From Anaerolineaceae bacterium (GTDB lineage: Bacteria; Chloroflexota; Anaerolineae; Anaerolineales; Anaerolineaceae), in the NCBI GenBank assembly GCA_029975475.1, contig JARKPB010000010.1, positions 62,001 to 126,000 on the forward strand: a DNA stretch of 64,000 bases, read 5' to 3'. Shown one piece after another: positions 38,138 to 57,644 of this stretch. Positions within the stretch are counted from its first letter, which is position 1. Every line of letters begins with the position of its first letter. A program made the translations under genes and the position numbers. The notes beneath the pieces are model-generated. The model saw nothing but the letters and a program-made list of their open reading frames with translations. It made no database searches and was not told the DNA's origin.

Positions 38138-39949
38138 ATGGAGAAGGTCAAACACTGGCTGAACCGGTTATTCGGGTTTTATTATCGCCAGGGTTCGTTA
38201 AAACTCAGGGGGGTGAGCTTTGCAGCCGCTACCCTGGTATTTCTCGCTGCTTATTTCCTGCTGCACGGCATCTGGGGCGAGGGCATCACCGCGCTTTCCA
38301 TCCTTCCGGCGGTTGTCGCCGGGCTGGCGTTTGGGGTAGGCGGTGGTTTTCTGGCCGGGCTCTTCCTGGCGGGGCTAAATTTGCTGCTCATTTTTGCGTT
38401 CGGCCATCAGGATCCTTACCTGTTGCTGCGCAGCGGTGGGCTGGCCGGAATAATCTCTGTCCCTCCGATCGCGGTTGTGGTCGGGCTGCTGCGCAATTTA
38501 AGCCAGACCCTGAACAATGAACTGGTCCTGCGGCGTCAGGCGGAAGAACGTTTACTGCTCAGCCAACAGGACCTGGATACCCTCTTTCACACCGTTGAAG
38601 ATATTATTGTTGTTTTTGACCGGCAGGGAATGATTTTAAAAGTAAACCGGGCAGTGGAGCGAAAACTGGGGGTAGATGCCGCTGAACTGGAAGGGAAGCA
38701 CCTTTCAGCCCTGATTCCTGAACGCGCCCAGGCGATTAACACAGTGGTGCGTAAAATCTGGGAGGAAGGGCTGGCGCATCACGATTTCAGTTTTCCAACC
38801 CGCGACGGTGCCCAAATCCCGGTAGAAACCTACCTCTCCCGCGGCAGCTGGCAGGGCAAGCCGGCGGTCTTCGCCATCAGCCGGGATATGAGCCGCCACC
38901 AGGCTTCACGCGAGGCCGAACGGGAGCAGCGCAGTCTGGCGGAAGCGCTTGCCAGCACCGCGATGGCGCTGAACAGTTCTCTGGAATTCAACCAGATTAT
39001 CGAATTGATCCTGGATAATGTCGGTCAGGTGGTGCCGCACGACGCCGCCAATATCATGCTGCAGAATGGGGTTACCACCCGGGTAATCGCGCGCCGGGGA
39101 TACCAGCAATTCGAGGTGGACGAAGAGGTGGCGCAAACCGATTACCGGCTGGAAGACCTGCCCAGTCTGTACCGCATGTCGCAGGAGAAGCAGCCGGTGA
39201 TTGTCCCGGATACGCATAATTCGACCGAGTGGCGTAAAAACCGCCGCACGCAGCACGTCCGCTCATATATCGGCGCGCCCATTATTTCACGCGGCCGGGT
39301 GATGGGCTTCATCAACCTGGAAAGCACCACCCCCAATTTTTACCACGCCGTGCATGCCGAACGGCTGCAGAGTCTGGCATCTCAGGCCGGTCTGGCGATT
39401 GAAAAATCAGAGCTGTACGACGAAATTCAAAAGCTGGCGATTACCGATGAACTCACCGGGATTCTAAACCGCCGGGGCTTGTTTGAACTCGGCCAGAGAG
39501 AGGTGGACCGGGCTGTTCGGTTTAAACATCATCTGTCAGTCATCATTTTGGACCTTGACCATTTTAAAGCCGTCAACGATCACTTTGGCCACAGCACCGG
39601 TGACGCGGTTCTGAGGGAACTGGCCAACCGCTGCCGGGAAAATATCCGCGATGTGGATATTCTGGGGCGCTACGGGGGCGAGGAATTTGTGATCCTGCTG
39701 CTGGAATGCGATCTTCGCTGCGCCGCCATCGTAGCCGAACGACTGCGGAACGCGGTGGCAGCCGCGCCCTTTACCATTGGCAGCACCCGCCTGGAAGTTA
39801 CCATCAGCCTGGGTGCTGCGCAGCTTGATCCGCGCGGAAACCAGCAGGTGGAAGCCTTGATCGATCAGGCGGACAAAGCGCTTTATATCTCTAAGGAAAC
39901 CGGCCGCAATCGCTTAACCATCGCGGCAAGTAAAGAAGAGGTGCGATGA
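38138..39949 (+). CDS. Membrane PAS-GAF diguanylate cyclase
   Basis: 603 residues. About four membrane spans (25-130) of MASE/DUF4118-like type, then PAS (~145-255; FHTVEDIIVVFDRQGMIL), GAF (~275-430; VVPHDAANIML, YIGAPIISRGRVMGFINLE) and a GGDEF domain (~440-600). The active-site sequence is GGEEF (513-517), a functional variant, and DELTGILNRRG plus LDLDHFKAVNDHFGH are the substrate motifs. No RxxD inhibitory I-site is obvious five residues before GGEEF (RENIRDVDI carries RDVD, not in the standard position). It synthesises c-di-GMP. The stop overlaps the start of the next gene by 4 nt, so cyclase and phosphodiesterase are made together. Confidence 0.9.
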   Translation: MEKVKHWLNRLFGFYYRQGSLKLRGVSFAAATLVFLAAYFLLHGIWGEGITALSILPAVVAGLAFGVGGGFLAGLFLAGLNLLLIFAFGHQDPYLLLRSGGLAGIISVPPIAVVVGLLRNLSQTLNNELVLRRQAEERLLLSQQDLDTLFHTVEDIIVVFDRQGMILKVNRAVERKLGVDAAELEGKHLSALIPERAQAINTVVRKIWEEGLAHHDFSFPTRDGAQIPVETYLSRGSWQGKPAVFAISRDMSRHQASREAEREQRSLAEALASTAMALNSSLEFNQIIELILDNVGQVVPHDAANIMLQNGVTTRVIARRGYQQFEVDEEVAQTDYRLEDLPSLYRMSQEKQPVIVPDTHNSTEWRKNRRTQHVRSYIGAPIISRGRVMGFINLESTTPNFYHAVHAERLQSLASQAGLAIEKSELYDEIQKLAITDELTGILNRRGLFELGQREVDRAVRFKHHLSVIILDLDHFKAVNDHFGHSTGDAVLRELANRCRENIRDVDILGRYGGEEFVILLLECDLRCAAIVAERLRNAVAAAPFTIGSTRLEVTISLGAAQLDPRGNQQVEALIDQADKALYISKETGRNRLTIAASKEEVR

Positions 39950-42900
39950 CCCGCCGAGATGAAGAGCCGAACGAAAAAAACCTGCTGGTCGGCGGTCTGG
40001 ACCTTGGGTTGATCGTTATTTCCAGGGAGGACGAAGTATTATATGTCAGCCCAACCGCTCAGAAACTGGTACCTTTCAAAACTGGCGACAGGGTCAAAGT
40101 TAAACAATCGGACGGGCATATTTCGCTTAACTGTCCCGGGAAGCCGATTGAAAAACCCCTGCGGCTGCAGCTGCACCGCATCGACTGGAACGGCAAGCCG
40201 GCGACTTTGATCTCGCTGCGCCAGACCGGCAGCCTGGTTGACCGGGAACTCGCCGCCAGCCAGCGCATGCTGGCCACGCTGTTTTCCAACCTGCCCGGCA
40301 TGGCTTACCGCTGTCAGAATGACCGCGATTGGACCATGACCTTCGTGAGCGATTACTGCCGGGACCTGACCGGTTACGCCCCTGAAGATCTCATCAACAA
40401 CGCGCGCGTCTCTTACGGACAGGTCATTCATCCGCAAGACCGCCAGCGGGTCTGGGATGAAGTTCAGGCAGGATTGAGAGAACACCAACCTTTTCAGTTA
40501 ACCTACCGGATCGTGACCGCTGACGGTCAGGAGCGGTATGTCTGGGAGCGCGGCCAGGGCGTCTTTGATGATTTTGGCGAGCTGGAAGGCCTGGAAGGCC
40601 TGATCCTGGACATCAGCGAAAGGGTCAAGGCAGAGGAACGGCTGCGGTTGAGCGAAGCGCGCTACCGCGCGATTGTGGAAGAAAACAGCGAGCTCATTTG
40701 CCGTTTCCTGCCGGACGGCAGCCTGACCTTTGTTAATGAAACCTTCTGCGAATATTTTGACCTGGATCGATCCCAGCTGATGGGGAGGTCTTTTGTCCCG
40801 CTGCTTCACCCCCAAGACCGCGGCGAAGCCCAGCAGACACTGGATCGTCTCGCCCCAACCATGCCCAGCCCGGTAACGCTGGACAGCCGGGTGCTGCTGC
40901 CGAACGGTGAACAGCGCTGGATAACCTGGACCATCCAGCCGATTCTGGACGATCTGCACGCCTTTCTCGAATATCAGGCCGTCGGATTGGATATAACAGA
41001 CATCAAGCAAGCGCTCGCCAGCGCCCAGGAATCCGAACGCCGGCTGCAAGATGTGCTGGCCAATATTAAACTGGCCGCCATTATCCTGGATCACCACGGG
41101 ACGCTGACGTTCTGCAACCAGCATCTGTTAGATCTGGCTGGATGGAAAGCCGACCAGGTGCTGGGTAAAAACTGGTTCGAGCAGCTGCTTCCGGCAGAAG
41201 TCAGCCAGCAGTATTACCAGATCTTCCTGCAGGCAAGCTTTAGCGGCAATTTCCCCGAACGGTATGAACACGTCATCCGTACCAGCGACGGCAGCCAGCG
41301 TTTGGTTGCGTGGAACAACACCCTGCTGCACAACAGCCAGGGCGAGATTATCGGCCTGGCCAGTATTGGCGAGGATATTACCGAACGCAAGTGGGCAGAA
41401 AAGGTCCAGGCAGCGATTTTTAAGGTCTCTCAGGCCGCCATCAGCACCGATAATCTGATGGAACTCTTCCGAGTGATCCACATGACATTGAGCGATCTGA
41501 TGTTCGCCGAGAACTTTTTTATCGCTCTATACGACCCGGTCAAAGACCTGCTTTCGTTTCCGTATTATGTCGATCAATATGACTCACCGCCCGAAAGCCA
41601 CAAACCCGGCCGCGGATTGACCGAATATGTCCTGCGAACTGGCAAGGGTTTGCTGGCTCCTCCCGAGGTATTCAACCGCCTGGTCGAGCAGGGAGAGGTT
41701 GAGTTAATCGGCGCAAATTCGGTAGACTGGCTGGGCGTGCCCCTCAAAGTTGACAACCGGGTCATCGGGGTGATGTGCCTGCAAAGTTATTCCGCCGGGG
41801 TGCGGTACCAGCGGCGCGATCTGCAGATGATGAATTTTGTCTCCAATCAGGTCGCGATGGCGATTGAAAGGCAGCGCACCAGCGACAGCCTGAACAGCAC
41901 CAGCCAGCGGTATCAGGCGGTGGTTGAAGCCTCAACCGACGCCATTTTCCTCGAAACGATTGACGGGCAAGTGCTGGATTGCAACACCGCTGCCTGCCAG
42001 ATGTACGGCTACACCCGCGATGAAATGCTCAAGCTCTGGGTTGCAGATCTGATCCCGGGCGATCTGGCCGCGCAGCTCCCGTATTTTATTGAAACCCAGC
42101 TGCAAAACGGCGGATTAATGATCGAAGCCCAGGGCCGGCGCAAGGACGGCAGTATCTTCCCGACTGAAATCAGCACGCGGGTGATTTCAATGGGACAGGA
42201 AAAACGCGTGGTTGCCTTTGTGCGCGACATCACCAGCCGCAAAGCCGCCGAGAAAGCCCTGCGCGAATCGGAAGCCCGTTTCCGCAGCGTGGCACAGACC
42301 CTCGGGGCGGGTATTTTTATCCACCGGGGGGGCAATTACCTCTACTGCAACCCGATGTGGGCGCGCATTACCGGTTACAGCGAGGAAGAGCTGCTCAGCA
42401 TGGACCAGTCGCAGATCGCGCCTGAAAACATGAGTCGGGAACACCGCAGCATGCTGGAAAATATCCTGGAAGGAGGGACTCCCCCGCCGGTGATGGAACA
42501 TCCCATTCGGCATAAGAGCGGGGAAGAGCGCTGGATCAACCTGGCCGCCACGACGATTACCTACGACGGCGAACCGGCCATCATTGGCACGGCTACCGAC
42601 ATCACCGAACAAAAACTTGCCCGCGAGCGGATGCGCTTGCAGAGCGCGGCCCTTGAAGCCGCGGCCAACGCGGTGGTGATCGCCCATCCCCGCCATGGAA
42701 TTTCTTCGGTCAATCATGCCTTTACGGAATTAACCGGTTACGAACCGGAAGAGGTGTTCGGTAAAGAAATTTCGCTGCTCAACCCTGACCCCGGCCAGCA
42801 GACCACTTTCCGCGAACTTCAGCAAACGGTTTGTTCCGGGTATGTCTGGCACGGAGAGCTGGTCGGCCGCCGCAAAGACGGCAGCCTGTTCCATGCGGAA

Positions 42901-44061
42901 TTGACCACCACACCGGTGGTCAGCGCAGGCGGAGAGGTAACCAATTTCGTTGCCATCATCCAGAACATCACCGACCGCAAGATGCGCGAGCTGGAACTGG
43001 AGACCATTGCCCAGTTAACCGCCGCGCTGCGCACCGCCGTCCGGCGAAATGAAATTGTGCCGGTGATATTGCAGGAAGTCATGCGCCAGTTCCAGGCTGC
43101 CGGGGCGAGTATAGTGTCCGTGCTGGAATCTGACCAGAGTCTATACATAGATGAAGGCGCAGGACTGTGGCAAAAACTAACCGCCCAGAAAATGGCCGCC
43201 GGGCTGGGGATTTCAAGTCAGGTGCTGGCCACCGGAAAACCGTATATCAACAACCAGGCCCGGGAAGACCAGCATTTTGCCTATCCAGAACTGCTGGAGG
43301 GTGTAAACTGTCTGGCCGGGCTGCCGCTCTTTTCTCAGGGAAGCCTGCGCGGGGTCTTAACCCTGGGGAGAGAAAAACCCTTTGAAGCCAACGACATCCG
43401 GTTGTTGACCGCCATCTGCAACATTGCGGCGGCGGCCATTCACCGCGCGGACCTCTACGACCAGACACTTCAGCAGGCCAGCGAACTGGCTCAGGCTTAC
43501 GACGCCACCATTGAAGGCTGGGCGCGCGCGCTGGAACTGCGCGACAAGGAAACCCGCGGTCACACCGCCCGGGTTACCCGCCTCACCATCCAGATGGCTG
43601 AAGCGATGGGCATCCGCGGGCGCGAACTGGATAATGTGCGCCGCGGAGTGATCCTGCACGATATTGGGAAAATGGGCGTGCCGGATTCGATCCTGCTCAA
43701 GCCAGGCGAACTGAATGACGAAGAGCAGCGCATCATGCACCGGCACCCGGAATATGCTTATGAAATGCTCTCTCCGATCCCCTATCTGCGAGATGCGCTG
43801 GATATTCCCTACTGCCATCACGAACACTGGGACGGCAGCGGCTATCCGCGCGGCCTGGCCGGGGATGAAATCCCCCTGGCGGCGCGCATCTTCTCCATCG
43901 TGGATGTCTGGGACGCGCTGACCTCTGACCGTCCCTACCGCCCGGCATGGAGCCATCAACAGGCGCTGAATTACATTCAGGAACTGGCCGGTAAGCAGTT
44001 TGATCCAAAAGTGGTGGAAGTTTTTATCAAGATTCTGGGGCGTAAAGCAGCGGGCAGATAA
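39946..44061 (+). CDS. Cytoplasmic multi-PAS/GAF protein with HD-GYP phosphodiesterase domain
   Basis: 1371 residues, no membrane span. A run of PAS domains (about 90-225, 235-345, 355-475), a GAF (~490-640), three more PAS (~655-760, 770-890, 895-1015), a GAF (~1020-1165) and a terminal HD-GYP domain (~1180-1370). The HD-GYP signatures HDIGKMGVPDS, HRHPEYAYEML and HHEHWDGSGYPRGLAGD are complete. It is the third c-di-GMP gene in a row, and its start overlaps the cyclase stop by 4 nt. The HD-GYP region is very similar in wording to that of the divergent 1275-residue protein, so the two are probably paralogues from duplication. Confidence 0.9.
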   Translation: MTRRDEEPNEKNLLVGGLDLGLIVISREDEVLYVSPTAQKLVPFKTGDRVKVKQSDGHISLNCPGKPIEKPLRLQLHRIDWNGKPATLISLRQTGSLVDRELAASQRMLATLFSNLPGMAYRCQNDRDWTMTFVSDYCRDLTGYAPEDLINNARVSYGQVIHPQDRQRVWDEVQAGLREHQPFQLTYRIVTADGQERYVWERGQGVFDDFGELEGLEGLILDISERVKAEERLRLSEARYRAIVEENSELICRFLPDGSLTFVNETFCEYFDLDRSQLMGRSFVPLLHPQDRGEAQQTLDRLAPTMPSPVTLDSRVLLPNGEQRWITWTIQPILDDLHAFLEYQAVGLDITDIKQALASAQESERRLQDVLANIKLAAIILDHHGTLTFCNQHLLDLAGWKADQVLGKNWFEQLLPAEVSQQYYQIFLQASFSGNFPERYEHVIRTSDGSQRLVAWNNTLLHNSQGEIIGLASIGEDITERKWAEKVQAAIFKVSQAAISTDNLMELFRVIHMTLSDLMFAENFFIALYDPVKDLLSFPYYVDQYDSPPESHKPGRGLTEYVLRTGKGLLAPPEVFNRLVEQGEVELIGANSVDWLGVPLKVDNRVIGVMCLQSYSAGVRYQRRDLQMMNFVSNQVAMAIERQRTSDSLNSTSQRYQAVVEASTDAIFLETIDGQVLDCNTAACQMYGYTRDEMLKLWVADLIPGDLAAQLPYFIETQLQNGGLMIEAQGRRKDGSIFPTEISTRVISMGQEKRVVAFVRDITSRKAAEKALRESEARFRSVAQTLGAGIFIHRGGNYLYCNPMWARITGYSEEELLSMDQSQIAPENMSREHRSMLENILEGGTPPPVMEHPIRHKSGEERWINLAATTITYDGEPAIIGTATDITEQKLARERMRLQSAALEAAANAVVIAHPRHGISSVNHAFTELTGYEPEEVFGKEISLLNPDPGQQTTFRELQQTVCSGYVWHGELVGRRKDGSLFHAELTTTPVVSAGGEVTNFVAIIQNITDRKMRELELETIAQLTAALRTAVRRNEIVPVILQEVMRQFQAAGASIVSVLESDQSLYIDEGAGLWQKLTAQKMAAGLGISSQVLATGKPYINNQAREDQHFAYPELLEGVNCLAGLPLFSQGSLRGVLTLGREKPFEANDIRLLTAICNIAAAAIHRADLYDQTLQQASELAQAYDATIEGWARALELRDKETRGHTARVTRLTIQMAEAMGIRGRELDNVRRGVILHDIGKMGVPDSILLKPGELNDEEQRIMHRHPEYAYEMLSPIPYLRDALDIPYCHHEHWDGSGYPRGLAGDEIPLAARIFSIVDVWDALTSDRPYRPAWSHQQALNYIQELAGKQFDPKVVEVFIKILGRKAAGR

Positions 44062-47142: not shown

Positions 47143-48072
47143 TCAGGCGGCGCTGGAACGGCTGAGCCGCGGATCGAGCGCGTCCCGCAGGCCGTCGCCC
47201 AGCAGGTTAAAGCCCAGCACGGTGAGCATGATAAACAGGCCAGGGAAGAAGACCAGATGCGGCGCGGAGAAAATGCTGTTGCGCTCCTCGCTGAGCATCA
47301 GACCCCATTCCGGGCGCGGCGGTTCAGCCCCCAGACCGAGGAAGGACAGTGCCGCAGCGTCCAGGATGGCTGTCGCGATACCCAGGGTGCCCTGGACAAT
47401 TAAGGGGGTGATGGCGTTGGGTAGAATGCGCTTAAACAGGATATGCAGCGGTGATGCGCCCAGAGCGCGCGCGGCCTGGACATATTCCATCTCTTTGACC
47501 GACAGCACGGTGGAGCGCACCAGACGGGCAAAGCGCGGGATGGAGACAATCCCGATCGCCAGCAAGGCGTTGATCAGGCCAATGCCAAGCACGGAAACAA
47601 TCGCGATGGAAAGCAGCAGACTGGGAAAGGCCATTAACACATCCATGAAACGCATCAAGAGGTTATCCAGCCAGCCGCCTGCGAAGCCAGCCACGGCGCC
47701 AATAATCAGGCCGATCAGAATGGCGAAGAACATGGTGATGATGCCCACCTGGAGGGACAGGCGCGAACCAAACACCACCCGCGAGAAGAGATCCCGGCTG
47801 TTGCCGTCGGTGCCAAAAATGTGTTCGGGTTTATCCGCCGGGCAGCCAAGAATGTGAATGCAGGGCGGTTCGCGCCGTTTGACGTCTTTGAGCAATTCAG
47901 TGGGATCGTAGGGAGAAATCACCTCCGCAAAAATCGCCATCAAGATCAACAGTCCCAAAATCACCATGCCCGCGCGCGCCGAGCGGTGGCGCATGAGGTG
48001 GTGAAGGGCTTCCCGCGCTGGCGAACGCTGTTCGGCGTGTTTGCTGGTGTCAAGTTGTGCTGTTTTTGCCAT
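47143..48072 (-). CDS. Oligopeptide-type ABC transporter permease, DppC/OppC family
   Basis: 309 residues. Membrane spans at about 36-56 and in the C-terminal part; GRDLFSRVVFGSRLSLQVG and the EAA loop EYVQAARALGASPLHILFKRILPNAITPLIVQ are standard for the second permease of Opp/Dpp systems. The domain OppC_N is the hydrophobic start (VILGLLILMAIFAEVISPYDPT). Works with the DppB-like permease and two ATPases in the same operon. Last gene of the operon, followed by a strong terminator. Confidence 0.92.
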   Translation of the reverse strand: MAKTAQLDTSKHAEQRSPAREALHHLMRHRSARAGMVILGLLILMAIFAEVISPYDPTELLKDVKRREPPCIHILGCPADKPEHIFGTDGNSRDLFSRVVFGSRLSLQVGIITMFFAILIGLIIGAVAGFAGGWLDNLLMRFMDVLMAFPSLLLSIAIVSVLGIGLINALLAIGIVSIPRFARLVRSTVLSVKEMEYVQAARALGASPLHILFKRILPNAITPLIVQGTLGIATAILDAAALSFLGLGAEPPRPEWGLMLSEERNSIFSAPHLVFFPGLFIMLTVLGFNLLGDGLRDALDPRLSRSSAA

Positions 48073-48084
48073 GGCTGTTCACCT

Positions 48085-49161
48085 TTATTCCAGACGAATG
48101 CGCGGGTCAAGATACGCGTAAGATACATCCACCACCAGATTCACAACGACAAAGATAATGCCTACCACAATAACGAAGCCCTGAACCACAGGATAATCGC
48201 GCGCCAGGATCGCCCCGACCAGCGCCGTACCCACGCCAGGCAGCGAAAATACCGTCTCGGTCAAGACCGCGCCGGAAAGGAGCGAACCGGTCTCGATACC
48301 GATGATGGTAACGATCGGTATCATCGCGTTGCGCATGGCGTGTTTGGAGATGACCAGGCGCTCAATCAATCCTTTGGCGCGGGCGGTGCGAACGTAATCC
48401 AGGCCGAGCACTTCCAGCAGGCTGGAACGGGTCATGCGGGCGATAATGGACATCGGAATGGTACCCACCGCCACGGAGGGTAGGATCAGGTGCCAGACGG
48501 CGTCTTTAAACTTATTCCAGTCGCCGGTGATAAACGCATTGACCAGCACAGTGTTGGATAAAAATGTGACCACAAACTTCTGCAAACCCTGTAAATCGGT
48601 CAACCCCCAGTATTTCGCCAGCGGCACAAGGCTGATGCCGGAGGTAAACCGTCCCGAAGGCGGGATGTAAAACGGGGTGTCTTTGAGCAGCAGGGCGAAC
48701 ACATACGCCAGCAGCAGCCCAAGCCAGAAAACCGGCATTGAAACCCCGATATTGGCAAGGATCATGGTAATGGTATCAATAATACTGTTGCGTTTAATGG
48801 CCGAGATTACCCCCAACAATATTCCAAAGAAGGTGGAAAAGAGCATCGCTCCGAAGGTTAATTCCAGCGTGAGGGGCAGCCGTTCGGCGATCATATCCGT
48901 CACCGGGCGTCCAAAACGAAGCGAGATGCCGAAATCACCCTGGGCAACATTGACCAGATAGCGGCCAAACTGCACCATGATGTTATCGTTCAAGCCGTAC
49001 CGTTCTTTGAAGGCGTCGCATTTTTCTTTGGTGGCTTTTTCGCCCAACATAACCACACAGGGATCGCCAGGGATCAGACGCACAATGGCGAACGTAACCA
49101 GAAGGATCCCAATTACAACCGGTATCAACAGGAGCAGGCGGCGGGTAATATACTGTAGCAT
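48085..49161 (-). CDS. Oligopeptide-type ABC transporter permease, DppB/OppB family
   Basis: 358 residues from the ATG at 49161, with AAGGGACG before it; an upstream start lacks a ribosome site. First membrane span MLQYITRRLLLLIPVVIGIL is the hallmark of DppB. The EAA loop VLGLDYVRTARAKGLIERLVISKHAMRNAMIPIV is intact. A family-typical loop DLQGLQKFVVTFL precedes the core. Pairs with the DppC permease, 12 bp downstream. Confidence 0.92.
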   Translation of the reverse strand: MLQYITRRLLLLIPVVIGILLVTFAIVRLIPGDPCVVMLGEKATKEKCDAFKERYGLNDNIMVQFGRYLVNVAQGDFGISLRFGRPVTDMIAERLPLTLELTFGAMLFSTFFGILLGVISAIKRNSIIDTITMILANIGVSMPVFWLGLLLAYVFALLLKDTPFYIPPSGRFTSGISLVPLAKYWGLTDLQGLQKFVVTFLSNTVLVNAFITGDWNKFKDAVWHLILPSVAVGTIPMSIIARMTRSSLLEVLGLDYVRTARAKGLIERLVISKHAMRNAMIPIVTIIGIETGSLLSGAVLTETVFSLPGVGTALVGAILARDYPVVQGFVIVVGIIFVVVNLVVDVSYAYLDPRIRLE

Positions 49162-49249
49162 GGCGTCCCTTAGGAACTGGGCTGGATGGGGGAGGGCGGC
49201 ACAGGCCAGCCCTCCCCGCATCCGCGAGGTTTAGGACAGTTTCAACGGT

Positions 49250-50962
49250 TTACTTGGGTGCGTTCAGGAACGCGCCAAAGAAGGCGTTGAAGTATTCAAA
49301 GGTGCCAGTGCGGCCCTTGTGATTGGGGCTGGACGCATCCCAGTAGGAAGCGAAGGTGGCCACCACGTCATTGGCATCCAGGGTCGCGCCGTTGGTGAAT
49401 TTGACGTCTTTGCGCAGGGTGAAGGTCCACTCGGTGAGATCAGCGTTGGCTTCGTACTTCTCAGCCAGGTTCGGGACGACTTCGGCGCCGCCCACGCTGA
49501 AGGCCAGCAGCGGATCAAAGACCTGTTCGCAGGCGCGCAGGGTTTCGCCATCGGTCTCATCCGAGCACCACAGGGCGGCAGGCTCGCCGTTCTGCATCCA
49601 GACCAGCTGATCGGCGCCGTTGTCCATCACCGCGAAGACTTCGTTGCCCAGCGGGCTGGCATGCGCGCCAGCAACGTTGGCTTTGAAGGCGGTGGCGGAA
49701 CCGCCGTGAGCAACCGGGATCATCGGGACGTATTCTTTGATGAGCTTGTTGACTTCGTCATAGCTCTTCTGGCGGGTCGCCGGGTCGGCAACCACCGCGC
49801 CGGCATTGATCGCTTTGACCAGATCCGGGATCAGATCGCCAAATTGCTGGTTGGCCGGATTGGCAAAGTGATAATCAAAGAAGTTGGTGGCATCCGGGTA
49901 GTCCATACCCCAGCCAAGCAGGTAGAAACCTTTCTGGCCGGCGGCGGTGGCGTCAATGAAGGCGGCTGATTCCATTTCTTCCAGCTTGACATTGACGCCG
50001 ATTTCCTTCAACTGCGCCTGGATTTCAATGGCAACCTTATCCGGGGTCGGCAGGTAACCGCGAACCACATTGCGGAAAGAGAGGGTGATGGTCTGGTTGA
50101 AATCAAAGCCAGCGTCTTCCAGCATCTTGCGCGCGGCGGCTTTGTCGTAGTCGTACCATTTCACATCCGGGCTGAAACCAGGATCAAAGAAATCGGGCAC
50201 GAAGTTGATGGCAACCGACGAGCCGGCGGGATAATACTGATCCACGATGCGCTGGCGGTCAATCGCCATCGCGAAGGCTTTGCGCACTTCAACTTTGTCA
50301 AAGGGAGCAATTTTGTTGTTGAAACCAATGTAGAAGATGTTGCCCGCAGCGCGCGGATACAGCTTCAGATTGGGATCGGCTTCAATCGTGGCAAAATCTT
50401 CAGGCGCGGGGTTGTCAATGCCGTCCACCGTGCCAGACTGGAGTTCCAGCAGGCGCTGGGCGGACTGTTCGGACCAGCGGAAGATGAGGGTCTTGACCTT
50501 GGCGGGTTCACCCCAGTAATCCGGGTTGGCTTCCAGCGTAATGTGGTCGCCGCGCACCCATTCGACCACCTTGTAGGGGCCGGACCCAACCGGGTTTTCG
50601 CTGATGACGACCGAATCGCCCTGGGTCTGATCCAGATAGTCTTTATCCAGGATCGAGAAGACCGAGAAAGCGACCTTGGACGGGAAAGCGGGATCAGGCA
50701 GACACAGGGTGAATTTGACGGTGTACTGATCCACGGCTTCCACCGATTTGAAGCCCATGCCGTCACCGGCATAGGTGCAGTCGGGAGCAGCCACAACCAT
50801 GGGCTCGAAGGGAGCCGCAGGCGCTTCGGTAGCCGGGGCCTCGGTGGCCGGGGCCGGGGCTTCGGTAGCCGGGGCTGGCGCAGCGCCGCCGCCGCAGGCG
50901 GTCAGCAGCATGCTGAAGAGAACCAGCACACCGACCAGGGTAAAGAAAAAGCGTTTACTCAT
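49250..50962 (-). CDS. Circularly permuted substrate-binding lipoprotein, SBP family 5 (OppA/DppA-type)
   Basis: 570 residues. Lipobox FSMLLTAC with Cys23, then an Ala/Pro/Thr/Glu-rich linker (24-50). Residues ~51-445 match the middle and end of SBP_bac_5 proteins: SVEAVDQYTVKFTLCLPDP, NPVGSGPYKVVEW, PFDKVEVRKAFAMAIDRQRI, GWGMDYPDATNFF. Residues ~446-570 match the segment that normally begins the mature protein: DQLVWMQNGEP, DGETLRACEQVFDPLL, GGAEVVPNLAEKYE, LTEWTFTLRKDVKFTNGATL, GTFEYFNAFFGAF. So the order is swapped, with the cut near the end of the first N-lobe module. It should bind a solute outside the membrane for the DppBCDF transporter. I infer a full fold, since both parts are complete and in one frame. 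Confidence 0.85.
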   Translation of the reverse strand: MSKRFFFTLVGVLVLFSMLLTACGGGAAPAPATEAPAPATEAPATEAPAAPFEPMVVAAPDCTYAGDGMGFKSVEAVDQYTVKFTLCLPDPAFPSKVAFSVFSILDKDYLDQTQGDSVVISENPVGSGPYKVVEWVRGDHITLEANPDYWGEPAKVKTLIFRWSEQSAQRLLELQSGTVDGIDNPAPEDFATIEADPNLKLYPRAAGNIFYIGFNNKIAPFDKVEVRKAFAMAIDRQRIVDQYYPAGSSVAINFVPDFFDPGFSPDVKWYDYDKAAARKMLEDAGFDFNQTITLSFRNVVRGYLPTPDKVAIEIQAQLKEIGVNVKLEEMESAAFIDATAAGQKGFYLLGWGMDYPDATNFFDYHFANPANQQFGDLIPDLVKAINAGAVVADPATRQKSYDEVNKLIKEYVPMIPVAHGGSATAFKANVAGAHASPLGNEVFAVMDNGADQLVWMQNGEPAALWCSDETDGETLRACEQVFDPLLAFSVGGAEVVPNLAEKYEANADLTEWTFTLRKDVKFTNGATLDANDVVATFASYWDASSPNHKGRTGTFEYFNAFFGAFLNAPK

Positions 50963-51105: not shown

Positions 51106-52104
51106 TTACTTCCCGGCCAGCCAGCAGGCGGCCCAGTGGCCGGGCGCATGTTCAAGGAAGGGCGGTTCTTCCTGCCCGCAGCGTTCCACCGCAATTGGGC
51201 AGCGGGGATGGAAGCGGCAGCCCCTGGGCGGGTTGAGCGGGCTGGGCACGTCACCCTTCAAGATGGTGCGCTCGCGTTTTAATTCGGGGTCCGGGATGGG
51301 AATGGCTGACATCAACGCCCGGGTGTAGGGGTGCAGCGGGTGAAGGAAGAGCTCGTCGCGGGCGGCCAGCTCCACCATCTTGCCGAGGTACATCACCGCC
51401 ACGCGGTCGGAAATGTGTTCCACAACGCTCAGATTGTGGGCAATGAAGAGGTAGGTGAGTTCAAACTCTTCCTGCAGGTCTTTGAGCAGATTCAACACCT
51501 GAGATTGAATGGAGACATCCAGGGCGGAGACGGGCTCATCGCAGACGATGAATTTCGGACGCAGCGCCAGGGCGCGGGCGATGCCGATGCGCTGCCGCTG
51601 ACCGCCGGAAAATTCATGCGGATACCGGCGGGCGTGAAAATCTTCCAGCCCGACTTTATGGAGCATCTCACGCGCCAGATCGTAGCGGTCCTTCTTGTTG
51701 CCAACCTGATGGATCTGCAGCCCCTCCAGGACCGAATCGCCGATGGGCACGCGCGGATCCAGCGAAGCGTAAGGGTCTTGAAAGATAATCTGCATGTTGC
51801 GGCGGGCGGCTTTGAGGCGATCCCCTTTGAGCGCGAAGACATCTTCGCCGTTAAAAAACGCCTGGCCTGAAGTTGGTTCAATGAGCCGCAGGATGGTGCG
51901 CCCGATGGTGGTCTTTCCGCAGCCAGACTCACCCACCAGGCCAAGGGTTTCCCCGGCTTTGATAGCAAAAGAGACGTCGTCCACCGCCTGGACATGCGCC
52001 ACAACGCGCTGGAAGACTCCGGCCTTGACCGGAAAATATTTCTTCAGGTTTTTTACAACCAGCAAGTCCATTTTGCTATCCAGTGCGCCCGTCATTTGGC
52101 TCAT
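51106..52104 (-). CDS. Oligopeptide-type ABC transporter ATPase, DppF/OppF family
   Basis: 332 residues. [15 protein letters not shown] is Walker [11 protein letters not shown] is the Q-loop block, [32 protein letters not shown] gives signature and Walker B. The C-terminal extension [24 protein letters not shown] carries the Cys pattern of the oligo_HPY domain, an [Fe-S]-like Cys cluster in this family. Heterodimeric partner of the DppD-like ATPase encoded 24 bp upstream. Confidence 0.93.
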
Positions 52105-52128: not shown

Positions 52129-53160
52129 TTAGAGTGTGACCGGCGCCCGGTGTTCTTCAGAATCCTGGTACAGCCAGCAGCGAACCGCGTGATCGGATTT
52201 CTCAATCAGATCCGGTTCAACTTCTTCGCAGATTTTTAAGCCGTATTTTTCGCGCGCCAGACAGCGCGGCGCGAAACGGCAGCCCGGGGGCAGATTGACC
52301 AGATTGGGGACGATCCCGGGGATGACTTCCAGCCGCTTGACCACCTTGCCCAGCACAGGAATGGACCCAATTAACCCCTGGGTATAAGGGTGGAGCGGTT
52401 TTTTGAACAATTCTTTGACCCCTGCCTGCTCAACCACGTGGCCGGCGTACATCACCGCCACGCGGTCCGCCATTTCGGCGATCACCCCGAGGTCGTGCGT
52501 GATCAAGATCACAGAAGTGTTCATTTGCTCGCGCAGTCCGCGCATCAAATCGAGAATCTGAGCCTGGATGGTAACATCCAGCGCGGTGGTCGGCTCATCC
52601 GCAATCAGCAGGCGCGGGCTGAGGGCCAGCGCCATGGCAATCATCACGCGCTGCGCCTGCCCGCCAGACATTTCATGCGGATACGCGTAGGCTTTTCGCT
52701 CAACATCCGGGATACCGACCTGGCGCAGCAGATCGAGCGCTTTTTGCCAGGCTTCTTTTTTCTTATAGCCCTTGTGGATCATCAACACTTCCGCCACCTG
52801 GTCGCCCACGCGGTAGACCGGGTTCAGGCTGGACTGGGGTTGTTGAAAAATCATGGAGATACGGTCGCCGCGCATCTTCACCATCTCGGCTTCGGGCAGT
52901 TTGAGCAGGTCTTTATTTTCAAACAGGATCGATCCTTCAATAATCCGGCCGGGCACCCCCACCAGGCGCATAATCGAAAGAGAGGTGACCGATTTGCCGC
53001 AGCCCGATTCACCGACCAGCCCCAGCACCTCGCCGGTGCGCACCGAGAAATCGACGCCATCCACCGCTTTGACCACCCCGTCTTCGGTGAAAAAATACGT
53101 TTTCAGGCCGCGAACCTCTAAAATGTTTTCATCCTGCGGTGAAGCGGCGGTAAGGTTCAT
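52129..53160 (-). CDS. Oligopeptide-type ABC transporter ATPase, DppD/OppD family
   Basis: 343 residues from the ATG at 53160 with GGAG before it; the open frame extends six codons further. [15 protein letters not shown] (Walker A), [17 protein letters not shown] (Q-loop), [17 protein letters not shown] (signature) and [14 protein letters not shown] (Walker B) are clear. C-terminal oligo_HPY segment [24 protein letters not shown] has the Cys pattern. First gene of the operon, divergent from the GntR-family gene. Confidence 0.93.
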
Positions 53161-53210
53161 GTACAGCTCCTGAAACAACCCATGGACTGATAAAGCGGAA
53201 TTAAGTTTTT

Positions 53211-53442: not shown

Positions 53443-54168
53443 ATGACCCCCACACTCCAGCCCTTACAAGTTCAATCCCTCAAACAGGCCTGCGTGGCGC
53501 GCCTGGAAGAATTCATCCTTTCCGGCGCGCTGCCGGCCGGCGAACGCCTGCCTTCTGAGCGCGACCTGGCCGCCAGCCTGAACATCAGCCGGCCCATTCT
53601 GCATGAGGCGCTGGTGGATCTGGCGAGTAAGGGGCTGGTCAGCATTCAGCCCAGGCGGGGGGTGTTTGTGAACGATTTCCGGGTGAACGGATCGGTGGCG
53701 ATCCTTTCATCCCTGATGTCTTACCAGGGCGGCCAGCTGGCGCCGGCCTTCATTGACAGCCTGATGGAAATGCGCCTGACGATGGAATGCGACACCGCGC
53801 GTCTGGCAGCGGAACGCCGCCGCCAGGAACACCTGGAGCGTTTGCACGCCTTGCTGGCGCGCGAAACCGCCGCCTCAATCAGCGACCCGGAAGACCTGAT
53901 TGAAACCGATTTCGCCTTCCATCTGGAGATCGCCCTGGCATCCGGCAATCAGGTTTACCCGCTGATCATCAACTCGTTTAAAAGCGTTTATACAAGCCTG
54001 ACCGGGCAGTTTTTTCACGCCTACGCCGGCACGCCTGTGCTGGTGGAAGTTTCAAAATTTCACCACCGGCTGGTTCAAGCCGTCGAAAAACAGGATAGCG
54101 CGCAGGCGGAGGCGGTCATGCGCGAGATGCTGGTTCACGGTGAAGTCCATTTGAAAGGAGCTGTCTGA
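53443..54168 (+). CDS. GntR-family (FCD, FadR subfamily) transcriptional regulator
   Basis: 241 residues. N-terminal winged helix: LPSERDLAASLNISRPILHEALVDLASKGLVSIQPRRG is a full GntR recognition region. Residues ~90-235 form an all-helical FCD ligand domain, with the metal-ligand Asp/His positions in ETDFAFHLEIALASGN and FHHRLVQAVEKQD. FCD regulators respond to carboxylates or other small organic acids. Overlaps the glycyl-radical enzyme start by one base and faces the ABC transporter operon, so it most likely controls both. Start codon at 53443 has no strong ribosome site. Confidence 0.9.
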   Translation: MTPTLQPLQVQSLKQACVARLEEFILSGALPAGERLPSERDLAASLNISRPILHEALVDLASKGLVSIQPRRGVFVNDFRVNGSVAILSSLMSYQGGQLAPAFIDSLMEMRLTMECDTARLAAERRRQEHLERLHALLARETAASISDPEDLIETDFAFHLEIALASGNQVYPLIINSFKSVYTSLTGQFFHAYAGTPVLVEVSKFHHRLVQAVEKQDSAQAEAVMREMLVHGEVHLKGAV

Positions 54169-56681
54169 TGTGCGCCCCAACCCTCGAAAAACCCAAGTAT
54201 GCGATTAAAGAGCCGCGCAATCTCTCGCCGCGCATTCAATGGCTGAGAGATTACTACTTCCAGGGTGTGAAACGGAAATGGAACAACGAGTTTACCTCCT
54301 GGACAACCGGAACGCCCTGGGACTTTCAGTTCAACGAAGCCTCTTTTTACATCGTTCCTGAGACATACGCCTTTCTGACGACCTTTACCTCTTCGTTCCG
54401 GCAGACCGCCTACCCGGTCGCGCTGCACCCGGATTTCTGGCGCTGGAGTCTGCCCGAACGGCGCGCCTGGTTTGTGCGCGAGGTGATGGTGCATTATCTG
54501 CCCAAGGAAATACTGCCGGGCGACCTGCTGGCCGGGGCGCGCTTCAATATTCTAGCCTCCTGCTGTTTAACTGAGAAAGAAGCCGCGGAATATAACCGTT
54601 TGGTGCACGGCAAAGACGGCTGCCGCGCAGCCATGCTCTGGCTGCACAATCACGGCTACGGCAACGCCGGCGCGACCAGCGGCCATCTGGTTCCCGATTA
54701 CGCGCGCGTGATTGAAAAAGGCTGGAAAGACATTTACGCGGAGCTGGAAGCGCTTTACGCGGAATTGACCGAAGATGAGAAAAAATCTGCCCGCGGCGGG
54801 CAGCTGCGCGCGATGATGACCGCCGCGACCATGCCGCGCGACCTGGCGGCGGAATACAGCCGGCTGTGCGCCAGCCTGGCAGAAACCGAAAGCGACCCGG
54901 CGCGTAAAGCCGAGCTGGAACAGATGGCTGCCAACCTGACGCGCGTTCCCTGGGAGCCGGCGGAAACCTTCTGGGAGGCGGTCCAATCCCTGTGGCTGAC
55001 CCACATGCTGGTGATGAGCGACGAGGGCTACCCGGGACCGGGCGATTCTTTCGGCCGCGTGGATCAATATCTTTACCCGGCCTGGCAGCGCTCGATCGCC
55101 GCGGGTATGGATCCGGAATTTGGCAAGGAAATCCTGAAATGCTTCTGGGTTCACGCCAATACCGCCTATGACGCCATGATCCGCACCGGCGGAAATCAGG
55201 GCATCACCGCCGGTTACGGACAGCTGATCACCCTTTCCGGCATGGGAGCGGGGGGCAAAGACCTGACCAACGACCTGACCTACGCCATCCTGGACGTGAT
55301 TGACGAGATGTCGCCCATTCTGGAACCGAAGCCCAACGTGCGCCTGCACCGCGGCAGCCCGGAAGCGCTGCTTGACCGGGTGGTGGAGATGATCGCTAAC
55401 AGCCAGGGCGCCCCGTTTTTGCTCAATTTTGACGAACGCTCGATAGCCGGGATGCTGCTTCAGGCGCGCAAAGCCGGGGTAGAAGATCTGATTCGCCCGG
55501 ACAACGTGCACGAATACGCGCCCGTGGGCTGTCTGGAAAACACCATGGTCGGCAACGACCGCTCCGGCACGGTGGACAACAATCTCAATCTGCTCAAGGC
55601 GGTTGAACTGGCGCTCACCGGCGGCTATGATCTCATCCCCTACACCGACCCGATGACCGGGATCACCGAGAAAGCGGTCCGCCACGGGCCGGATACCGGT
55701 TCAGCGGAGAGTCTGACCACCTGGGATCAGTTCTGGGAAGCTTACGCGGCGCAGACGCGCTATATCATCGGCAAAATGGTCGAAGTTTATGAAACCTCCG
55801 AAGCGGTTCGGGCGCGGTTTAACCCCACCCCTTACCTTTCCTGTCTGGTGCGCGGGTGCGCGCAAAAGGGTCTGGACGTTACCGCCGGCGGCGCGGAGCT
55901 TTCTTTCACCACCCTCGAAGCGGTCACCTACGCCACCACCGTTGATTCGCTCCTGGCGGTTAAGTACCTGGTCTATGACCGCAAGGTGTGCAGCCTGCCC
56001 GAACTGGTCCAGGCGCTGCGCGACAACTGGGTCGGTCACGAAAAACTGCAGGCGCTGGCGCTGAACAAAGCGCCCAAATACGGGCGCGATGACGATGAAG
56101 CGGACGCGCTGGCTTACCGGGTCATGGAACTGTGGACGGAGGAAACCTGGAAGCATAAAACCCGCTCCACCAACCGCCAGTTCCGCCCGGGGATGTTGAG
56201 CTGGAATTACTGGATCGCCTATTCCGATATCCTCCCGGCCAGCCCGGATGGACGCCCGAAGGGAAAATTCCTTTCCAACGCGCTCTGCCCTTCCAACGGC
56301 GCGGACATCAACGGGCCGACAGCCAACGTCAACTCGGTGGGTAAAGCCCTGGGCGGAAAAGGCGAGCCGGGCGACTGGCAGGACTACCGCAACCTGCTGC
56401 CCAACGGAGGCAGCCACACCATCACCTTTAATCCGTCCATCCTGCGCGGGGCTGAACACCGCGACCGATTTAAGGCATTTCTGCGCGGATATATTGAAAA
56501 CGGCGGCACTGCCCTGCAGGTCAACATGCTGGATGCCGAGATGCTGCGCGACGCCCAGCACCACCCTGAAAATTACCGCCATTTACTGGTGCGCGTCACC
56601 GGGTATAACGCCTACTTCACCACCATCGGCAAGGAACTGCAGGATGAGATCATCGCCCGCGAAAGCCATCAGATGAGGTGA
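54168..56681 (+). CDS. Glycyl radical enzyme (PFL-like family, substrate unknown)
   Basis: 837 residues, the normal length. The C-terminus has LLVRVTGYNAYF with the radical-bearing Gly812, and residues 452-459 (PVGCLENT) give the catalytic Cys455 and the Glu457 of the G-C-x-E motif used by dehydratases, lyases and decarboxylases; pyruvate formate-lyase has Cys-Cys instead, and benzylsuccinate synthases lack this Glu. Other family blocks: GHLVPDYARVIEKG, PFLLNFDE and FNPSILRGAEH. The gene is followed at 6 bp by its activase. Divergent transporter and FCD regulator suggest an imported organic compound as substrate. It is not clearly a CutC, HypD, glycerol or isethionate enzyme from what I can see. 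Confidence 0.88.
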   Translation: MCAPTLEKPKYAIKEPRNLSPRIQWLRDYYFQGVKRKWNNEFTSWTTGTPWDFQFNEASFYIVPETYAFLTTFTSSFRQTAYPVALHPDFWRWSLPERRAWFVREVMVHYLPKEILPGDLLAGARFNILASCCLTEKEAAEYNRLVHGKDGCRAAMLWLHNHGYGNAGATSGHLVPDYARVIEKGWKDIYAELEALYAELTEDEKKSARGGQLRAMMTAATMPRDLAAEYSRLCASLAETESDPARKAELEQMAANLTRVPWEPAETFWEAVQSLWLTHMLVMSDEGYPGPGDSFGRVDQYLYPAWQRSIAAGMDPEFGKEILKCFWVHANTAYDAMIRTGGNQGITAGYGQLITLSGMGAGGKDLTNDLTYAILDVIDEMSPILEPKPNVRLHRGSPEALLDRVVEMIANSQGAPFLLNFDERSIAGMLLQARKAGVEDLIRPDNVHEYAPVGCLENTMVGNDRSGTVDNNLNLLKAVELALTGGYDLIPYTDPMTGITEKAVRHGPDTGSAESLTTWDQFWEAYAAQTRYIIGKMVEVYETSEAVRARFNPTPYLSCLVRGCAQKGLDVTAGGAELSFTTLEAVTYATTVDSLLAVKYLVYDRKVCSLPELVQALRDNWVGHEKLQALALNKAPKYGRDDDEADALAYRVMELWTEETWKHKTRSTNRQFRPGMLSWNYWIAYSDILPASPDGRPKGKFLSNALCPSNGADINGPTANVNSVGKALGGKGEPGDWQDYRNLLPNGGSHTITFNPSILRGAEHRDRFKAFLRGYIENGGTALQVNMLDAEMLRDAQHHPENYRHLLVRVTGYNAYFTTIGKELQDEIIARESHQMR

Positions 56682-56687
56682 GTCTGG

Positions 56688-57644
56688 ATGTCCGGTATCG
56701 GCGGCACTATTCTGCATCTTCAACGCCTCTCCACCGAGGATGGGCCGGGAATCCGCACGACCGTCTTTCTGAAAGGCTGCCCGCTGCGCTGCGCCTGGTG
56801 CCACAACCCGGAAAGCATCGCCCGCTATCCGCAGGTGCACTGGATTCAAAACCGCTGTATCGGCTGCAACACCTGCCTGGAAGCCTGCCCGCGCGGGGGG
56901 CTGCGGCGCGGTGAAACCGGGTTGATCATCGACCGAGCGGTCTGCCAGGGATGCGGCAGCTGCGCTGAAGCCTGCCCGGCCGGGGCGCTGGAAGTGCTGG
57001 GACGCGCGGTGCAGGCGGACGACCTGGTGGAAGAATTGTTGAAAGACCGGGCGTATTATGAAAAATCCGGCGGCGGGGTCACCCTCTCCGGCGGAGAACC
57101 AACCCTGCAGCCCGAGTTCAGCGCCGAAGTGTTCCGCCTGCTGCGCGGCGCGGGTATATCCACCGCTCTGGATACCTGCGGCCTGTGCGGGCAGGCAACC
57201 CTGGCTGACCTGCTGCCGCGCTGCGATCTGGTTTTATACGACCTGAAATTGTTAGACAGCCGTCAGCACCGCCAGTTTACCGGCGCGGACAACCAGCGCA
57301 TTCTGGAGAATCTGACCTGGCTTTGCGGTCAGCTGGCTCGCGAAGGCGGGGCGCGCCTGTGGATCCGCACTCCGCTGATTCCCCGCGCGACTTTTTTGGA
57401 AGAAAATATTCGCGGGATCAGCGCCTGGCTGGCAGATCACACCCTCGGTCAGGTCGAACGCTGGGAACTGTGCGCCTTCAACAACCTGTGCCGCGATAAA
57501 TACGCGCGGCTGGATATGGACTGGGAATTTGCCGCGGACGGATTGATGCGCGCGGATGAACTGGCGCAGGCCGGCGAATGGGCAGCGCAGGGCGGTTTTG
57601 ACCGCGCGCGCACCTTTGTCACCGGCGCGGCGCGGATGGAATAA
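56688..57644 (+). CDS. Glycyl-radical enzyme activating protein (radical SAM)
   Basis: 318 residues. GCPLRCAWCHNPES is the CxxxCxxC motif (C31, C35, C38) that binds the SAM cluster. Two further ferredoxin-like clusters follow: CIGCNTCLEACP (57-67) and CQGCGSCAEACP (86-96), as in activases of dehydratase-type enzymes (PFL activase has none). SGGEPTLQPEFSAE and ALDTCG are later family motifs. It abstracts hydrogen from Gly812 of the enzyme encoded just before. Confidence 0.95.
   Translation: MSGIGGTILHLQRLSTEDGPGIRTTVFLKGCPLRCAWCHNPESIARYPQVHWIQNRCIGCNTCLEACPRGGLRRGETGLIIDRAVCQGCGSCAEACPAGALEVLGRAVQADDLVEELLKDRAYYEKSGGGVTLSGGEPTLQPEFSAEVFRLLRGAGISTALDTCGLCGQATLADLLPRCDLVLYDLKLLDSRQHRQFTGADNQRILENLTWLCGQLAREGGARLWIRTPLIPRATFLEENIRGISAWLADHTLGQVERWELCAFNNLCRDKYARLDMDWEFAADGLMRADELAQAGEWAAQGGFDRARTFVTGAARME

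Follow-up and report, generated by a model that had tools for sequence, protein, structure and literature searches.

The 570 aa protein encoded at positions 49250-50962 on the reverse strand of the window, the 64,000-nucleotide stretch of Anaerolineaceae DNA analysed here, is a family-5 (DppA-type) substrate-binding lipoprotein whose chain runs in a circularly permuted order, termed CP1. The reading frame is single and intact, with the ATG at 50962 and the stop at 49250, and its match to Pfam PF00496 (SBP_bac_5) is significant (E 1.3e-86, 291.5 bits against a cut-off of 32.4). The match falls into two stretches, the better of which pairs profile positions 64-365 with residues 70-370; in a genome-wide scan, window 49853-50764 matches profile positions 59-365, and window 49316-49483, which is downstream on the reverse strand, matches positions 1-56. 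The two stretches are reversed and the canonical SBP_bac_5 chain order is not met, as the initial annotation had predicted for this alignment in proposing a circular permutation. By alignment with Escherichia coli DppA (8z1y_F), DppA residues 153-529 correspond to residues 72-443 of the protein and 28-145 to residues 450-560, and subtraction of 28 from the 8z1y_F numbering gives mature DppA numbers.

Segment A, residues 62-448 (49619-50779, reverse strand), corresponds to mature DppA ~118-507 and comes first in the chain, whereas segment B, residues 449-570 (49253-49618, reverse strand), corresponds to mature DppA ~1-117 and comes last. The join of the native C- to the native N-terminus lies at about residues 447-451 (49610-49624, reverse strand), as placed by the DppA alignment, which ends at 443 and restarts at 450, and by the model; the two termini meet almost without a gap at approximately residue 449/450, and the new ends of the protein lie between mature DppA ~117 and ~123. 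As both segments are present once, are swapped and bring the native ends together nearly gaplessly, circular permutation is the correct reading, and the earlier proposal of two single segments in swapped order with joined native ends is borne out. Its clean junction likewise stands, with the native C-terminus at about residue 449 instead of the ~445 originally given. Judged by the homology of both segments, the protein would be classed in a permuted SBP_bac_5 subfamily and not as an ordinary member.

Ahead of segment A the protein carries a signal peptide with a lipobox (50894-50962, reverse strand) in which Cys23 is the expected lipid anchor site, followed by an Ala/Pro/Glu/Thr-rich linker from the anchor Cys to the core (50780-50893, reverse strand), both recognised in the sequence; the initial annotation was accurate in describing one intact frame with signal, lipobox and linker kept. 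A simple lipobox scan is passed by 85 of 106 CP1 frames, the misses including cut frames, fused frames and real exceptions such as L019, and the linker is mostly ~30-60 residues long in unfused CP1 members.

Distribution and origin of the CP1 order

CP1 is the common order of a large group across several Chloroflexota families and not a one-off, as emerged from the search for Chloroflexota homologues that the initial annotation had suggested. At E <= 1e-60 the window protein has matches in at least 42 of 61 relatives, at least 92 of the 199 class genomes and at least 41 of 301 genomes of the phylum, counts that are lower bounds since few candidates were scored per genome (four for most genomes in the phylum survey). 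Judging by the ranges of the matches listed, the join is crossed in all 42 relatives, in 91 of the 92 class genomes (not in G086) and in 37 of the 41 phylum genomes; among the remainder G412, G477 and G391 are canonical and the match in G461 ends before the join. Sorting of frames by the order of three segments gave 106 permuted (A1-A2-B), 37 canonical, three in a third order and 22 partial frames, and with more loci and laxer limits, one truncated frame (L046) having been dropped, 117 permuted, 47 canonical and three in the third order. Removal of near-copies left 100 of the 117 permuted frames at 99% and 98 at 97%. The cut site is shared, as 99 of 100 permuted frames end no more than 14 residues after segment B and the exception extends 63 residues beyond it.

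Most permuted members come from metagenome assemblies; a complete genome, that of Leptolinea sp. HRD-7 (L019), and the isolate L. tardivitalis YMTK-2 (L020) also carry the order. The source genome of the window encodes a second permuted protein, a paralogue of 43% identity likewise with two reversed profile matches, alongside five family-5 genes whose profile match is one near-full stretch. A cluster of family-5 genes lies in the same genome at G000:C10 159592-167335, one match being interrupted by an internal TAA. The permuted order also occurs in Acidimicrobiia MAGs (L043, L044, L046, L049) and in one MAG titled Thermoanaerobacterales (L035), and for these non-Chloroflexota carriers binning errors are not excluded. 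The search beyond Chloroflexota used patterns built from the window protein and covered the best 80 of 345 places, and absence elsewhere is weakly informative.

In a 62-row tree, for which the segments were rearranged to one order, the rows thinned by identity and no more than four canonical rows that were long or odd removed beforehand, all permuted rows fall on one side of a branch (98/93), from which a single origin of the permutation is likely. A FastTree of 123 rows, computed before L172-L174 were added, agrees on one permuted side (99), and one basal fork on that side is weak (88/24). The tree is rooted by midpoint, and the canonical order is taken as ancestral because it occurs in many phyla. 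L173, followed by L172 and L056, are the canonical rows closest to the permuted side; these family-5 proteins of Chloroflexota and Rokubacteria are also the nearest canonical rows per segment, and L056 has DppB and DppC adjoining, as at the window locus. They differ from CP1 in their canonical order and in lacking a Cys motif that precedes the opening strand of segment A. The account favoured here, very probable (roughly 0.9), is that the lipid-anchored binding subunit of a DppBCDF dipeptide/oligopeptide importer was permuted to CP1 in an ancestor of the group that now occupies several Chloroflexota families. Tandem gene duplication and subsequent loss of the outer parts is the probable route, inferred only; the native termini were joined and new ends opened at DppA ~117-123, the point where signal peptide, lipobox and linker now enter the fold. 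Tandem copies of the permuted gene exist in L032, L156 and L160.

The identical order of profile matches would be expected from a chimera, made by loss of the native N-terminal part of a family-5 protein and attachment, at its C-terminus, of an N-lobe segment taken from a different binding protein, and in the available part of their report the authors working on Tp0684, a permuted binding protein of Treponema pallidum, likewise left this explanation open (PMC4990184). For the window protein it is nevertheless very improbable. Segments A and B largely share their nearest canonical relatives, with L173, L172, L056 and L062 in the top five of both, which argues against separate sources; segment A against segment B gives a Spearman coefficient of 0.60 over 25 canonical rows, the identities of the two segments correlate at 0.87 within the permuted rows, and the join coincides almost exactly with the native ends. 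An assembly or sequencing artefact at the join, which the initial annotation had named as an alternative and for which the 20-contig state of the source genome might speak, is refuted along with chance by the identical join in independent genomes, as at least 91 of the 199 class genomes cross it by the listed match ranges and the permuted order was checked directly in the complete genome L019, the isolate L020 and the single-contig genomes G010 and G027.

The CP2 order and predicted structures

Three loci of Anaerolineaceae type (L155, L045 and L048) have the segment order A2-B-A1, termed CP2, with the cut near DppA 343, which reflects a further permutation of the CP1 gene in a single Anaerolineaceae branch. 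The gene of L155 is an intact 613 aa frame with signal and lipobox, that of L045 has an in-frame TAG early on and that of L048 starts at a contig edge. The slot DppD-DppF-SBP-DppB is kept at L155 and L045, and DppB-DppC is kept at L048. The CP2 rows cluster within CP1 (100/99), and a topology that unites CP1 to the exclusion of CP2 is rejected (p-AU 1.1e-38); in the tree the second permutation is accordingly placed within the CP1 group, where it is rarer than CP1 among the sequences compared. No other gene that was already permuted is known to us to have undergone a further, nested permutation at its locus. The Cys motif that precedes the opening strand of segment A stands at the N-terminus in 87 of 98 CP1 frames by a loose pattern and in 38 of 98 by a strict one, and with both patterns alike it is internal in all three CP2 proteins and in none of 44 canonical rows. 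From its N-terminal position in CP1, its internal position in CP2 and its absence in the canonical proteins the motif is read as a scar that gives the direction from canonical through CP1 to CP2.

In the structure prediction that the initial annotation had proposed, AlphaFold2 gives a DppA-like fold for the CP1 core (pLDDT 94.2, pTM 0.89) and equally for CP2 (pLDDT 91.3, pTM 0.89). Residues 1-394 of the CP1 model align with 1dpp_A 91-507 (Z 31.6, rmsd 2.4, 384 residues) and residues 166-528 of the CP2 model with 1dpp_A 1-343 (Z 27.9, rmsd 2.3, 333 residues). The structure aligners follow sequence order, so that each model matched DppA only in part; jointly the two matches span DppA, and segment B was compared structurally only via the CP2 model. 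In the model alignment the CP2 chain ends at DppA 343, and its start is inferred from sequence to lie just beyond that residue. The two-lobed fold that defines cluster C is met by prediction only, and AlphaFold2, which knows the canonical fold, may favour it.

Ligand residues, operon and known relatives

R301 and D354, both within segment A, correspond to R383 and D436 of DppA (precursor numbers), each of the two being conserved in 48 of 49 aligned members. In E. coli these residues bind the ends of the dipeptide and then E41/R42 of the DppB scoop loop, according to the available part of the source (PMC12136057). The aligned position in the window DppB is E61/K62, a glutamate as in E. coli followed by a lysine in place of arginine. 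The catch-and-release chemistry of the permuted protein therefore appears unchanged as far as conserved residues can indicate, and from the retention of the ligand Arg and Asp it is probably an ordinary peptide receptor for DppBCDF, with ligand, import and docking all inferred: the retained fold, ligand residues and scoop-loop charges would allow peptide capture and the usual docking. Within family 5, other members carry different ligands. Against the NCBIfam DppA equivalog NF043070 the window protein scores 212.9 bits, far below the cut-off of 1005, and thus it is not filed as a DppA equivalog.

Gene partners of the DppBCDF type, a further criterion for a DppA receptor, are present at the window locus, where the reverse strand encodes in order DppD (52129-53178), DppF (51106-52104), the binding protein, DppB (48085-49221) and DppC (47143-48072), the complete Dpp-type operon that the initial annotation had recognised. 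The DppF ATPase passes NF008453 (410.7 bits, cut-off 408), the best models for the DppD ATPase are OppD/DppD with scores below their cut-offs, and both permeases are below NCBIfam cut-offs. Divergently from this operon, genes for a GntR-type regulator, a glycyl-radical enzyme and an activase occupy window 53443-57644 on the forward strand. The 837 aa enzyme is below all listed NCBIfam cut-offs (best TIGR01774, 393 of 678 bits) and the activase passes only the general TIGR02494, so no substrate is inferred for these genes. The enzyme has no match at the other loci compared for gene neighbours, and a link between it and the Dpp transporter was dropped on this ground and because no specific NCBIfam cut-off is reached. 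Further away, at window 39946-44061 on the forward strand, lies a gene for a 1371 aa protein that by eye resembles a multi-PAS/GAF HD-GYP sensor.

Two conserved pairs of cysteines are found in the permuted proteins. Cys62 and Cys87 (50702-50779, reverse strand) form a candidate disulfide at the new N-terminus; in 98 permuted frames both are present in 88, neither in six (one of which, L122, is cut at the start), Cys87 alone in four and Cys62 alone in none. The second candidate, Cys466 to Cys478 near the old N-terminus (49529-49567, reverse strand), has both cysteines in 89 of these frames, neither in seven, only Cys478 in two and only Cys466 in none. This mostly pairwise gain and loss suggests two disulfides, one of them at the new N-terminus, although the bonds themselves are inferred. 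The first pair is absent from the early-branching rows L052, L157, L163 and L164.

Natural circular permutation of binding proteins is rare. It is already known in another class from Tp0684 (TpMglB-2) of T. pallidum, a permuted glucose-binding lipoprotein of cluster B for which, with its kin, a permuted subclass 'Cluster Bc' was proposed, as given in the accessible part of PMC4990184. Like Tp0684 the CP1 protein is a naturally permuted tethered binding protein; it differs in structural class, as Tp0684 is a cluster B sugar-binding protein and CP1 a family-5 protein with a predicted DppA-like fold. The window protein does not have the cluster B (type I) fold that the subclass requires, and it works like a 'Cluster Bc' protein of the Tp0684 type without being a member. 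No second permutation or fusion was seen for Tp0684 in the portion of PMC4990184 available. With the E. coli DppA/DppABCDF system (PDB 1dpp, 8z1y; PMC12136057, available in part) it shares the family, the predicted fold, the ligand Arg/Asp and the operon partners, and it differs from DppA in its permuted chain order, in the point at which signal and linker enter the fold and in the two conserved Cys pairs. Among the open-licence PMC papers listed, judged by the openings of their abstracts, none presents a permuted binding protein of family 5 or cluster C, in agreement with the initial annotation, to which no described permuted member of the family was known.

Fused domains and the meaning of the permutation

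In 17 of 100 permuted frames the core begins beyond residue 190 of the stop-to-stop frame, and it is proposed that, in branches other than that of CP2, further modules became joined to the front of the CP1 core. Another binding-protein domain stands in front in 13 of the 17, identified with Pfam as SBP_bac_3 in 11, Peripla_BP_6 in L156 and SBP_bac_1 in L159; the other long frames include a protein kinase (L032) and a caspase plus FHA domain (L158), and in L175 and L042 Pfam found no further domain in front of the permuted core. A haem-binding domain match is also present in L117 and L114, and ahead of the core of L052 there is a weak match to LysM. L157 (2622-6041, reverse strand) joins Peripla_BP_6, SBP_bac_3 and permuted SBP_bac_5 in one chain with DppB and DppC adjoining, and at L156 (2903-10276, forward strand) a nearly identical permuted core follows one Peripla_BP_6 domain (by eye) in one gene and two such domains in the adjoining gene. 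The L032 gene (2844-5669, forward strand) encodes a Ser/Thr kinase, an apparent transmembrane stretch (by eye) and the permuted protein as outer domain and adjoins an ordinary permuted gene, and L158 (909-4166, forward strand) places a caspase-like domain, an FHA domain and the permuted core in one frame. At L163 (354-5652, reverse strand) two adjoining genes encode SBP_bac_3 fused to a canonical and to a permuted family-5 protein, respectively; the canonical neighbour has one PF00496 stretch (profile 2-366), which means that fusion does not require permutation. Nine fused loci were compared (L032, L042, L055, which is a near-copy of L118, L156, L157, L158, L159, L163 and L164); DppB and DppC lie alongside in six of them, for L032 via its second gene, and no DppB or DppC was found within the piece of locus examined at L042, L158 and L163.

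Why the permuted order has persisted is less certain than the order itself. The leading guess, held at little better than even odds, is that it is functionally neutral: the fold would tolerate the new order since its ends meet, the order would be retained as reversal is unlikely, and the fusions and Cys pairs would have come later for other reasons. The retained ligand residues and scoop-loop charges, the tolerated second permutation and the SBP_bac_3 fusion of the canonical L163 protein, which is independent of permutation, are all in keeping with this, but the wide spread of the order and the frequency of long N-terminal stretches, for which there is no matched canonical control, could indicate an advantage. 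The adaptive explanation, that an end anchored at another point of the N-lobe eases tethering or appending behind extracytoplasmic modules, is possible and the less favoured of the two. It draws on the binding-protein domains in front of most long members and the kinase or caspase-like/FHA parts of others, and the authors of the Tp0684 report raised tethering as a reason for permutation in the part that is available (PMC4990184); however, the canonical protein beside the permuted L163 gene is fused as well, and the lack of a matched canonical control limits this explanation as it does neutral retention.

A further-reaching interpretation can be suggested only tentatively. On this view the group is a serially permuted cluster C clade, which passed from canonical through CP1 to CP2 at one operon site and bears an order-recording scar; its permuted core would have served repeatedly as a plug-in ligand module attached after other binding proteins, a kinase and a caspase-like/FHA protein, and composite receptors would have become possible through the permutation itself. 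The family offers matched natural proteins in three chain orders, in which folding, secretion and transporter docking are directly testable. These proteins also probe, without engineering, how much cutting and rejoining a protein fold can bear, and they supply natural cut points for biosensor design. For the permuted peptide receptors of Chloroflexota the names N- and C-lobe and the rules for N-terminal trimming fail.
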